A stretch of DNA of 37,819 nucleotides from Fimbriimonas sp. Its GTDB lineage: Bacteria > Armatimonadota > Fimbriimonadia > Fimbriimonadales > Fimbriimonadaceae. The notes below the pieces were generated by a model. The model was given only the letters and a program-made list of their open reading frames with translations. It ran no database searches and was not told the origin of the DNA. Positions 4,274-8,169 of this stretch are shown in pieces (the first letter of the stretch is position 1; each line of letters opens with the position of its first letter). The stretch lies in the NCBI GenBank assembly GCA_031292555.1, contig JARLGV010000092.1, positions 1 to 37,819 on the forward strand. Direction: 5' to 3'. A program made the position numbers and the translations under genes.

Positions 4274-4990
4274 TTATGGTTCAGTTTCGTACATCGTGCC
4301 ACTTAATAAGAGTATTGACGAAGCGGCTGGACCGGCATGATCCACTCGGAGAACCCTTGGGCCAAGGGTGACTCCTCGCTTCCCTATCCAAGCAAGTTCG
4401 GGCTTGGACCACCCACCTTCCGGGCCAACGACGATCGTCATTTTGCTCCCAAGCCGCGTGAGAGTGGGCATTGTTCCTTCCACTTCCGAGAGCACGACCG
4501 AGTCTGGACGTCCATCGAGTAGCTGCTTAAGCCCCCCAAGCACCTCGAACGTGGGAATTCTGGTCCGGAAGCTGACTTCAGCTGCCTCCCGTGCAATCGT
4601 CCTCAGGCGGTTCACGCGATCGGAAGTTTTCTTATCGTCCCATTTGACGACGGTTCGATCGCTTGGGAACAGGACGAAGTGCGACACGCCGATCTCCGTG
4701 CATGCCCTCACGATCTCATCGAGCTTGTCCCCCTTTGGCAACGCTTGAGCAAGTGTGAGATGCAGGACCGGTTCTGTCTCGGGAGCAAACACTTCGATGG
4801 GCTCGGCATGCCTCGTTTGGAGGCGGCAATGGATGAGCGTGCCGTCGTCAGGCAGTACGGCGATTTCGGCTCCTGGCGACAAGCGCAGGACCTTGCGGAG
4901 CTTGTTCAGTTCCTCGGATGGAATCTCAATCGGCTCGTCCGGAGTCGCCCCTTCGATGAAGACCCGCGGAAGCGATCGTAAGATCAGCAT
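4274..4990 (-). CDS. rsmE: 16S rRNA m3U1498 methyltransferase RsmE
   Basis: This is a SPOUT-fold enzyme that methylates N3 of U1498 in 16S rRNA using S-adenosylmethionine. The 238-residue protein shows the N-terminal PUA-like part (LPRVFIE...HKLRKVLRL-type), ALPKGDKLDEIVRACTEIGV (83-102), REAAEVSFRTRIP (134-146) and the knot motifs VVGPEGGWSKPEL (187-199) and LGPRVLRVDHAGPAASSIL (209-227). The family usually has R-T-E-T where this protein has R-V-D-H. I place the start at the ATG overlapping the prmA stop by seven bases (4984-4990); the frame stays open 40 codons further but that would lie inside prmA. It is the last gene of the operon. Confidence 0.93.
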   Translation of the reverse strand: MLILRSLPRVFIEGATPDEPIEIPSEELNKLRKVLRLSPGAEIAVLPDDGTLIHCRLQTRHAEPIEVFAPETEPVLHLTLAQALPKGDKLDEIVRACTEIGVSHFVLFPSDRTVVKWDDKKTSDRVNRLRTIAREAAEVSFRTRIPTFEVLGGLKQLLDGRPDSVVLSEVEGTMPTLTRLGSKMTIVVGPEGGWSKPELAWIGKRGVTLGPRVLRVDHAGPAASSILLLSGTMYETEP

Positions 4991-5811
4991 GTGAAAGTTG
5001 CTGCGACCCAGCCGTCTTCTTCTTTGAATGTCACAAGTCCAAATCCAGCCGATTGCGCTGCCGCCAAGACGTCCGGCCAATTGTCGGAGATGACTCCGCT
5101 GATGATCCACCGACCGCCTGGAGACACGAGGACGCGAACGTCCCTCGCAAGCCGTATGAGAGTTGCGCTAATGATATTGCTAACCACAACGTCCCAAGTT
5201 TCGTCGTAGACGAGTACGCCTTCTCCAACCACCGCCTCGAAATCGACCTGGTTTGTCGCTCGATTCTCTTTCGCAACTTCGACGGCGATTGGATCTATGT
5301 CGATCGCCATCACCGATGTCGCTCCGAGCAGGCACGCCCCGATTGAAAGAATTCCGCTGCCGCAACCGATATCGAGAACCCGTCTCCCTGAAATATCGGC
5401 GCCCTCCATCAACTCGAGACACAAACGAGTTGTGGGGTGATCGCCGGTTCCAAATGCTTGCCCCGGGTCCAACACGATCACCAGATCGCCCTCGCTGGAC
5501 TCGAAACTTTCCCATGTGGGCCGGACGACAAACCGCTGTCCGACTCGGCGCGGCTTGAAGAACTGGCGCCAAGCCACTTCCCAGTTGTCCTCGACCAAAT
5601 CTCGGGTCTGAACGTAGAGTGCCCCTGCTTGCTTCAGGGCCGACTCCAACTCGTTAATACGGGCCTCAGAGCCATCGACGCTCACCAGGCACCCCGTGAG
5701 AGAATCCCCTTCTTCCAGTGTGTTCTCGATGCCGAATTCGCCAAACAGGTCAATGTACGGAGACAGATCCTGACCCGCCTCGAAGCCGGCCTTTACTTCG
5801 ATCCAACTCAT
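4984..5811 (-). CDS. prmA: Ribosomal protein L11 methyltransferase PrmA
   Basis: PrmA methylates ribosomal protein L11 with S-adenosylmethionine. The 275-residue protein has an N-terminal substrate-recognition domain (about 1-75) and the Rossmann-type methyltransferase domain. Visible motifs are DPGQAFGTGDHPTT (115-128), the SAM-binding LDIGCGSGILSIG (146-158), AIDIDPIAVEVAKEN and VVSNI. Its start overlaps the dnaJ stop (ATGA) and its end overlaps the rsmE start, so dnaJ, prmA and rsmE are translationally coupled. The order dnaJ-prmA-rsmE is common in many bacteria. Confidence 0.95.
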   Translation of the reverse strand: MSWIEVKAGFEAGQDLSPYIDLFGEFGIENTLEEGDSLTGCLVSVDGSEARINELESALKQAGALYVQTRDLVEDNWEVAWRQFFKPRRVGQRFVVRPTWESFESSEGDLVIVLDPGQAFGTGDHPTTRLCLELMEGADISGRRVLDIGCGSGILSIGACLLGATSVMAIDIDPIAVEVAKENRATNQVDFEAVVGEGVLVYDETWDVVVSNIISATLIRLARDVRVLVSPGGRWIISGVISDNWPDVLAAAQSAGFGLVTFKEEDGWVAATFTC

Positions 5812-6923
5812 CGCTTCTTGTGGAACAGACCGCCGAGGATGCCGCCCTTCTCATCCTCTTTCGGCAATGTCTCCCCGCGCAGTTCGGCGAAGTCGCGAAT
5901 CAGCTTTGCTTCGGCGTCGGAGAGTTTTGTGGGAACCTTGACGTTGACCTGGACCACGAGGTCCCCACGTCGGCCCCCATGGAGCGGAGGCAGCCCGCCG
6001 CTACGAATCGCGATTTGGGTTCCTGGCTGCGTTCCCGCCGGGATCGTGAGTTCGAAATTCTCGTCGACACCGGAGATCTCCAACCGATCGCCCAACGCGG
6101 CCTGGGCGAATGTGGCTTCGAGCATCGTATAAAGAGTCTGCCCGTGTCGTTGGAAACGGCTGTCGTCCGCCACCTGCAGCACGACGTAAAGATCGCCAGG
6201 CCGCCCTTCGCCTACTCCATCGCTTCCCTGTCCCGGCACATGAAGCGTCGCTCCATCCTCAAATCCGGGAGGAATATTGACCGAAACTTTGGCCGTTTCT
6301 GGTAGAACCGCACGTCCCTTGCACTTCTTGCACGGATCTTTGATAACAGTTCCGGCGCCTCCGCATGTTGGGCATGGCGCGGACGTTCGGACTTGGCCTA
6401 TGAACGTGTTGCGAACGGTCGACACCTGCCCTTGTCCACGGCACGTGGAGCAAGTTTCGGGAGCCTTGCCACCCTCGACGCCGGTGCCCTTACACGCATC
6501 GCACTCCGCCTTGCGGTTAACCGCGACTTCAGTGTGGATTCCGTTGATGACATCTCGCAGCGTCAACTCAAGGTCGACGCGGATATCCTCGCCGTCTCTG
6601 CCCATTCGCCGTCGGCCACCACCGCCCCCGCCTGCCGCGCCAAAGAACACGTCGAACAGATCCGAGATGTTCCCACCGCCAAAGAACGGGTCGGTTGGAG
6701 CGTCGTCGGTCGATCCGGTTTGGTCGAACCGGGCACGCTTGGTCGGGTCCGACAAAATGGAGTAGGCAGCGCCTACCTCTTTAAACTTCTCTTCGGCACT
6801 GGGGTCGTTCGGATTGACGTCGGGATGGTACCGACGGGCCATACGGCGGTAGGCGGACTTGATTTCATCTGAGTCCGCCGTCCTCGAAACTCCCAGGACC
6901 TCATAGGGATCCTTGCTCGGCAT
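5808..6923 (-). CDS. dnaJ: Chaperone DnaJ
   Basis: This Hsp40 co-chaperone stimulates DnaK ATPase and binds unfolded clients. The 371-residue protein has a J domain with HPD at 33-35, a Gly/Phe-rich linker (about 80-105) and a zinc centre of four Cys pairs (141/144, 158/161, 184/187, 198/201), followed by two beta-sandwich domains. The last pair reads CKKCKGRA rather than CxxCxGxG, which keeps both cysteines. It lies three bases after the rpoZ stop and overlaps prmA by four bases. dnaK and grpE are not in the window. Confidence 0.97.
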   Translation of the reverse strand: MPSKDPYEVLGVSRTADSDEIKSAYRRMARRYHPDVNPNDPSAEEKFKEVGAAYSILSDPTKRARFDQTGSTDDAPTDPFFGGGNISDLFDVFFGAAGGGGGGRRRMGRDGEDIRVDLELTLRDVINGIHTEVAVNRKAECDACKGTGVEGGKAPETCSTCRGQGQVSTVRNTFIGQVRTSAPCPTCGGAGTVIKDPCKKCKGRAVLPETAKVSVNIPPGFEDGATLHVPGQGSDGVGEGRPGDLYVVLQVADDSRFQRHGQTLYTMLEATFAQAALGDRLEISGVDENFELTIPAGTQPGTQIAIRSGGLPPLHGGRRGDLVVQVNVKVPTKLSDAEAKLIRDFAELRGETLPKEDEKGGILGGLFHKKR

Positions 6924-6926
6924 AGT

Positions 6927-7412
6927 TTAGGGCTCGTCGGGTTCGTCGTCTTCGGCGGTTTCTTGCTCGGCGATATCGGACAGAGAAAGAGTATCGTCTT
7001 CGGCGGCGATCGGTGCGACTTCGTCCTCATCATCTTCGACGAGATCCGACAGGCTCATGACCTCGTCGCTTTCGAGATCCGTATCATGCTCGTCTTCGCC
7101 AACGGCAACCACAAGAGCGGCTTCCGTTTCGTCAAGGGCCGGTAGCAGCATGCCGAGTTCGGCAGGCACATGCTCGTCGATCAGCATCGGAAGATCGTCG
7201 AGAGGCATTGACACTTCGGACAGCGAAGGCATGATCGGCTTGATCTTGCCGGCCGCGATCTCTGCAAGGGCGATGGTCAGGGGGTGACTGGAGTCGCAGT
7301 GAACTAGCTGAGGGGCGCCCTCGCGCAACTGCTTCGCTCGCTTGGCAGCCAGGTTAGAAAGCACGAACTTGCCGTGCTCATAGTTGTTAAGAATATCTGG
7401 ACTTGGCAGCAT
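6927..7412 (-). CDS. rpoZ: RNA polymerase omega subunit with long acidic tail
   Basis: Residues 1-60 match the omega family: YEHGKFVLSNLAAKRAKQLREG and HPLTIALAEIAAGKIKP, which help assemble the beta' subunit. Omega is normally about 60-100 residues; this one has 161. Residues 61-161 form an acidic, probably disordered tail in which a short motif occurs three times: SLSEV (63-67), SLSDL (120-124) and SLSDI (143-147). It is the first gene of the operon with dnaJ, prmA and rsmE (only three bases before dnaJ). A TAGAAT hexamer sits about 24 bases upstream, and a perfect inverted repeat lies further up. Confidence 0.88.
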   Translation of the reverse strand: MLPSPDILNNYEHGKFVLSNLAAKRAKQLREGAPQLVHCDSSHPLTIALAEIAAGKIKPIMPSLSEVSMPLDDLPMLIDEHVPAELGMLLPALDETEAALVVAVGEDEHDTDLESDEVMSLSDLVEDDEDEVAPIAAEDDTLSLSDIAEQETAEDDEPDEP

Positions 7413-7477: not shown

Positions 7478-7508
7478 TATAGGTCGTATAGATGCTATAC
7501 GACCTATA
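7478..7508. repeat. Perfect 14-bp inverted repeat
   Basis: TATAGGTCGTATAG (7478-7491), the loop ATG, and CTATACGACCTATA (7495-7508) are exactly complementary. It lies 26 bases beyond the stop of the histidine phosphatase gene and about 50-80 bases upstream of the inferred rpoZ transcription start. It could end the phosphatase transcript or be an operator for rpoZ. The bases after it on the minus strand (CACTGATTTTC) give only a poor U-run. Confidence 0.6.
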
Positions 7509-7533: not shown

Positions 7534-8130
7534 CTACATCCGGTTGCTTAGTGTCAGATTCTCTTGAACCCGCTTGGTCAAACCGCGAATCGGCTTGCCG
7601 GCGGCATCGAATTTGATCTGGATGACCCAACCGAACTGAGCCGCCGGCCACTTACCGGATGGAAGCAACGCTTCGGGCTGAACCCCGAAAGATCTGATGA
7701 GATTCGGAATGTTGCCGTGATGCCAGCAGATGACATAGCTCTTCCCTGCCGGCCTCGCCTGGATGTCGGAGATGACCTGGGCGTACTGATTGTTCTTATA
7801 TTTGCTTTCGACGGGCAAACCGAACGACTGGCCCAAGGGTTCGAGCGTCAGCCTTTCCCGGGCGCTTTTCTTGCTGTCAGCGGTGGCCAGTAAGTAGTCC
7901 GCATGAAACAGACTGGATCCGACTTTGTAGTTCTGGAAATACTTCGCATATGCGGTCGCCCTCTCCTTACCGCGAGGCGTCAACCCGGTTCCATCGGCCG
8001 GCTTTTCGCCATGACGAATGATCAAGACGGTGGCATTCGAGAGGCCGGATCCCTGGGGCGCCGGGTTGGCGAAAGCGAGCGAAGCAGCTGCAACGATGGC
8101 AAACGGGACTAGACAGGGACGCAGGGTCAT
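7534..8130 (-). CDS. Secreted histidine phosphatase family protein
   Basis: After a signal peptide (about 1-22, ending AFANPA) comes VLIIRHGEKP (39-44 is RHGEKP), which holds the phospho-accepting histidine of the phosphoglycerate mutase/acid phosphatase superfamily. The later CWHHGNIPNL supplies the second catalytic histidine. The protein is short (198 residues), as in SixA/DUF-type single-domain members, and should act outside the cytoplasm. The substrate is unknown. The ATG at 8130 is preferred to the adjoining GTG at 8133. It is divergent from the DUF3052 gene, with 51 bases between the starts. Confidence 0.82.
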   Translation of the reverse strand: MTLRPCLVPFAIVAAASLAFANPAPQGSGLSNATVLIIRHGEKPADGTGLTPRGKERATAYAKYFQNYKVGSSLFHADYLLATADSKKSARERLTLEPLGQSFGLPVESKYKNNQYAQVISDIQARPAGKSYVICWHHGNIPNLIRSFGVQPEALLPSGKWPAAQFGWVIQIKFDAAGKPIRGLTKRVQENLTLSNRM

Positions 8131-8169
8131 CACACACGTATTGTGAACGATTAGCGTGAAATGCGGGAG

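Follow-up and report, generated by a model that had tools for sequence, protein, structure and literature searches.

A long acidic tail with two conserved islands on the RNA polymerase omega subunit of a Fimbriimonas species: a putative docking arm

The gene rpoZ lies within a 37,819-nucleotide stretch of Fimbriimonas sp. DNA (contig JARLGV010000092.1, assembly GCA_031292555.1), which is called the window hereafter (Table 1). Its 161-residue product scores 49.4 bits against PF01192 in a Pfam scan (curated cut-off, 26) and 32.5 bits against TIGR00690 (cut-off, 23.6), while NF001579 reaches 37.6, below its cut-off of 58. PF01192 matches rpoZ alone in the source genome, so the gene is single copy. 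Judged from its sequence, the open reading frame is a genuine RNA polymerase omega subunit, as a first-pass annotation of these coordinates had proposed; it is read from the minus strand. The genes dnaJ and a prmA-like methyltransferase follow it in the same orientation. On the other side of rpoZ, a perfect inverted repeat of 14 bp around a loop of 3 nt (window 7478-7508), terminator-like on the minus strand, separates it from a weak histidine-phosphatase match that falls below the Pfam cut-off (7534-8133). One more palindrome resembling this repeat occurs in the genome (C106:142854-142884).

Table 1. Features of the rpoZ locus, in window coordinates.
Feature	Position	Strand	Evidence
rpoZ, RNA polymerase omega subunit, 161 aa	6927..7412	(-)	ORF; PF01192 E 4.7e-13; TIGR00690
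Omega core, residues 1-60	7233..7412	(-)	PF01192 match residues 15-59; pN/pS; AF2 helices
Acidic tail, residues 61-161, mostly predicted disordered	6930..7232	(-)	Composition; pLDDT
SLSEV, residues 63-67, no conserved element	7212..7226	(-)	SLS[DE] in 3/58
Island A, residues 85-97, ELGMLLPALDETE	7122..7160	(-)	LLP in 56/58; pN/pS 0.045
Island B, residues 120-125, SLSDLV, moderately conserved	7038..7055	(-)	35/58 loose, 21/58 strict; pN/pS 0.228
Island C, residues 141-151, TLSLSDIAEQE, predicted N-capped helix	6960..6992	(-)	S143/L144 invariant; pN/pS 0.077; AF2
dnaJ, 3 nt downstream of rpoZ stop	5808..6923	(-)	PF00226, PF00684, PF01556
prmA-like methyltransferase, overlaps dnaJ end	4984..5811	(-)	PF06325 E 1.5e-70

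The first-pass annotation described an omega core ending near residue 60, an acidic tail of about 100 residues and, within that tail, the strings SLSEV, SLSDL and SLSDI at residues 63-67, 120-124 and 143-147. All of this holds: the PF01192 match stops at residue 59, the 101 residues from position 61 onwards include 36 aspartates or glutamates and no lysine or arginine, and the three strings stand where they had been placed. Among 100,000 shuffles of this tail, at least two SLS[DE] strings arose in 27 and three in none. AlphaFold2 (AF2), run with the 58-row family alignment introduced below, places core helices at residues 14-31 and 44-54, with pLDDT values of 80-91 in the blocks covering residues 11-60. 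In blocks 61-140, pLDDT falls to 45-57, which is consistent with the disorder suggested earlier for the tail, a lone predicted helix at residues 144-153 apart. This helix begins right after S143 and is of modest confidence (mean pLDDT of 72 in block 141-150); for island A, AF2 predicts no structure. The pattern [LIMV]-S-L-x-D-[IL] is what we take to be a helix N-capping box, with the serine as cap, the aspartate at +3 and a hydrophobic staple. Island C has this form, and the predicted start of its helix after S143 agrees with it. The amphipathic moment of the helix is unremarkable, averaging 0.28, as against 0.20 for all tail 11-mers with a 95th percentile of 0.39.

An omega protein is present in 59 of 61 genomes searched, among them 36 of the 37 that belong to the source genome's own family (f1); the f1 genome lacking a match (G009) is a draft of 89% completeness. 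The family set comprises 58 distinct f1 omegas, that of the window included, 36 of them drawn from the 61-genome search and 19 + 3 from further loci, which were then aligned. The counts exclude loci that repeat an already included genome (L001, L058, L082-L088, L090-L092) as well as L117, a stretch without an omega gene. From residue 61 onwards, the family tails are 95-126 residues long and carry net charges of -30 to -62. The first-pass annotation had considered that tails of unrelated length lacking the motif would speak against it; the relatives instead have tails of similar length, nearly all with the third motif. The three strings, which it had treated as equivalent repeats, are kept very unequally. 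At site 1 (63-67), SLS[DE] occurs in 3 of the 58 omegas, counting the window's own; at site 2 (120-124), the loose form [ST][LIV].[DE][LIVM] occurs in 35 and the strict form SLS[DE][LIV] in 21; at site 3 (143-147), SL[SDTNE]D[IL] occurs in 57 and strict SLS[DE][IL] in 26. On these per-site counts, an array of one repeated docking motif was rejected. A second strongly conserved stretch, overlooked in the first-pass annotation, is island A, whose LLP at residues 89-91 is found in 56 of the 58.

Every one of the 58 family omegas has S143 and L144, and L89, L90, P91, D146 and E151 are each conserved at 90% or more. The codon for S143 is TCN in 48 sequences and AGY in 10; since the residue is kept across both serine codon blocks, the serine itself seems to be selected. 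When 57 of the 58 family tails were scored against shuffles (L036 left out), SL[SDTNE][DE][ILV] was present in 57/57, against 2.6 expected, and LLP[AGST] in 54, against 1.1 expected, with the core end set too far along in some tails of this set. For the non-family tails, 4 of 63 were left out of this scoring and 55 tails of at least 30 residues were scored. The spacing of the islands is unevenly kept: 31 residues separate the core from island A (range 26-33, s.d. 1.5) and 18 separate L144 from the C-terminus (range 15-20, s.d. 1.2), and the A-B and B-C spacings are more variable (s.d. 4.2 and 3.5).

According to the Nei-Gojobori scheme, applied to 38 close pairs that involve 29 of the 58 sequences, pN/pS is 0.060 in core residues 10-60, 0.045 in island A, 0.077 in island C and 0.228 in island B. 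In the three linkers it is 0.334 (residues 62-84), 0.379 and 0.312, so that the linkers change 4-8 times faster than islands A and C and the core, and in the last ten residues of omega it rises to 0.594. Given the kinship among family sequences and the overlap between close pairs, the pN/pS and shuffle figures are not independent tests. The synonymous term pS is high throughout (0.51-0.76) and reaches 0.757 and 0.739 in islands A and C, which makes constraint at the DNA level an unlikely cause of their conservation. Islands A and C are thus under core-like purifying selection, and the acidic linkers between them drift. Functionless drift of a low-complexity sequence would account for the linkers and the last ten residues, where pN/pS is 0.31-0.59, but it leaves unexplained the core-like constraint on the two islands and the serine kept across codon blocks; as an account of the whole tail, it is very improbable.

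Short conserved segments set among drifting linkers are the pattern of docking elements in a disordered arm, and since two of them are kept about as strictly as the core, the arm probably grips something. The preferred reading, to which we give a probability of about 0.45, is that an ordinary omega core continues into a long C-terminal extension, acidic and disordered, that serves RNA polymerase as a docking arm for a putative partner. Because the reach from the core to island A is near constant and the A-B and B-C spacings vary, island A may dock near the core, on the polymerase, and a flexible tether may lead on from there to island C. Island A would then probably pack on the polymerase itself, and island C, past its flexible linker, could fold as a short helix on a partner in the transcription machinery. 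The acidic linkers may hold the arm extended and away from nucleic acid. The docking site imagined by the first-pass annotation survives in altered form: the linkers drift and two islands show core-like constraint, but the single repeated motif is lost, since its first copy is not conserved, its second is so to a moderate degree, and island A differs in sequence. The alignment of relatives that it had proposed gave the same mixed answer, with island A and the third motif persisting and the motif array failing at sites 1 and 2. A second protein sharing an island peptide, which might have hinted at a binder, was sought in the source genome with the peptides of islands A and C and their flanks (E <= 10); these short-peptide searches, which are insensitive, returned one 12-bit match and nothing else.

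The close and main rival of the docking arm, possible although on balance improbable, gives the weight to charge instead of to the islands. The arm would act on the polymerase mainly as a polyanion, as the acidic region of the delta subunit does, entering or covering a nucleic-acid channel and speeding release or recycling, with islands A and C as mere anchors that position the charge. The lengths and net charges of the family tails match those of delta, whose acidic region has a net charge of -47 according to the accessible part of the source (PMC7749165). The fold of delta, HARE-HTH, is missing from the window's genome; of 21 genomes searched, 2 have it, and one of these belongs to the same genus as the window. 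Most tails in other families are acidic as well, though their sequences differ, which also suits a role for charge. Pure charge, however, requires neither an invariant S143 and L144 nor a near-invariant L89, L90 and P91. Omega binds the base of beta' at a distance from the main channel, and this too tells against the polyanion, although 100 residues could bridge the distance.

The wider survey of omega tails was carried out within Armatimonadota, where 264 of 291 genomes have an omega match. The sample outside the family consists of 103 omegas that represent 30 of the phylum's 44 other families, taken from the better-scoring matches listed; the weakest-scoring families, among them f6, f17, f20-f23, f25, f30 and f31, lie outside it. 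Tails in this sample have a median length of 94 residues (97 of at least 40 residues, 6 shorter; core end set by fallback in 3 of 103), and acidic residues make up a median fraction of 0.35 (range 0.18-0.56) in the 99 tails that reach 25 residues. Their sequences differ from family to family. Neither island proved to be a phylum-wide motif: the profile of island A found nothing convincing in 99 other-family tails (its best match has 0.32 expected by chance), and that of island C clearly matched 3 of the 8 f5 sequences, f5 belonging to the same order as f1, and nothing else in the sample. The tail ends of two f12 omegas (L077, L146) look island C-like by eye and are absent from the 14 best profile matches.

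Other families have conserved tail segments of their own. In f13 (12 sequences; L150-L160, L061), an island with the consensus EPSLEDIIGAG lies about 20 residues past the omega core, with E79, P80, D84, I85, I86 and A88 invariant and serine or threonine at the cap position. For one of these proteins (L155), AF2 predicts a short helix at residues 82-87, right after S81, with a pLDDT of about 64 in block 81-90, as well as two other tail helices of similar confidence (66-75 and 98-110). The form of the f13 island, EP[ST]xxDII, is that of island C and supports the docking arm. Consensus sequences of f10, f2 and f43 also keep residues beyond the core, from small sets of 9, 5 and 4 sequences. A capping-box-like pattern occurs in 31 of 97 other-family tails, compared with a mean of 10.9 and a maximum of 23 in 1000 shuffles, kinship between sequences not being removed, and it is limited to 8 of 26 families. 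Tail islands that look alike, such as QDYLVRRG and DQYFAGREG, are seen by eye near the omega core in f45 (L133, L176) and f41 (L129, L130, L170). A broader proposal is that omega in Armatimonadota is an evolvable recruitment arm, an acidic, disordered tail present on most omegas and fitted with family-specific docking elements, often a Ser/Thr-capped helix, that would serve as a landing platform for regulators; in this general form the proposal is speculative and rather unlikely.

The phylum sample also bears on whether the arm stands in for part of the sigma factor. If the RpoD-like sigmas of the family lack the acidic region 1.1, the omega arm might gate the main channel in its place. Of the 291 phylum genomes, 153 are listed with a PF03979 match, none of them in f1 (85 genomes by our count), and the N-termini of f1 RpoD-like proteins from 10 loci show no such domain by eye. 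In f2, a family of the same order, 16 of 18 genomes have PF03979, and omega tails are short in 4 of 5 (49-65 residues; the fifth has 173). Absence of PF03979 may nevertheless reflect divergence, since the model misses 8 of 14 named control genomes, and some f1 RpoD-like proteins own an acidic N-terminal stretch. Long acidic omega tails coexist with region 1.1 in f12, f35 and part of f13, and a weak region 1.1 match is present in two of the three f5 genomes that have island C (G048, G052). A trade-off between omega tail and region 1.1 was therefore discarded for the phylum, since it holds in no more than part of the order, and substitution for region 1.1 is an improbable explanation of the arm.

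Gene order raises a further possibility, namely that the arm helps the neighbouring DnaJ, or another chaperone, on beta' or omega during assembly. A J-domain gene lies no more than 1.2 kb after rpoZ in 58/58 family loci and in 68 of 92 scorable loci from other families (those with at least 300 nt downstream); within 60 nt, the counts are 57/58 and 40/92, the other-family figures being lower bounds because some stretches are short. This linkage extends far more widely than the island sequences do, which argues against such a role. Acidic flanks, moreover, make poor substrates of the Hsp70 system, and an assembly or chaperone role seems slightly less probable still than a substitute for region 1.1.

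Omega is usually viewed as a small assembly factor. Islands about as constrained as the fold itself, on a long acidic arm, would imply that RNA polymerase makes a conserved contact in the family and, through other islands, perhaps across the phylum. If the recruitment-arm proposal is true, a core polymerase subunit would be a lineage-specific landing platform for regulators. In practical terms, the peptides of islands A and C, with lengths of 11-13 residues, could be used as bait.

The first-pass annotation knew of no described omega with such an extension, and this is partly right. Most free-living omegas are 78-107 residues long, and disordered C-terminal segments, shorter than the one described here, have been published for omegas of Chlamydiae (15-63 residues) and Rickettsiales (33-54 residues), as far as the accessible text goes (PMC9973325). 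The omega C-terminal tail is reported in the available part of another study to be flexible and to become constrained upon beta' binding (PMC7700224). Full-text literature searches, which leave most subscription journals outside and may miss papers that use the Greek letter only, listed nothing on an omega arm of this kind, and PHROGs yielded no match. Omega chains in the PDB match the core; the 29 distinct chains that the family profile hits are 59-119 residues long, some of them probably partial, compared with 161 residues for the window protein.

Three known systems resemble the arm in part. In the omegas of Chlamydiae and Rickettsiales, too, a segment predicted to be disordered extends the core at its C-terminus, but here the arm is about 100 residues long and strongly acidic, and has two islands under core-like selection, whereas the accessible text on theirs speaks of no conserved motifs (PMC9973325). 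SutA of Pseudomonas aeruginosa, as described in the accessible part of the source, combines a D/E-rich region with a helix, the latter anchored on the beta protrusion of RNA polymerase (PMC9300723); it is a separate regulator, however, and no core subunit. The delta subunit (RpoE) of Bacillus subtilis is, in the portion of the source available, likewise a small polymerase subunit, and its flexible acidic tail is close to the arm in length and charge (PMC7749165). In contrast to delta, the folded domain here is omega and not HARE-HTH, PF01192 being the sole Pfam match of the window protein up to an E-value of 1. An omega with a disordered tail is thus already known, and what is new is the length of the tail, its acidity and its two islands under core-like selection.
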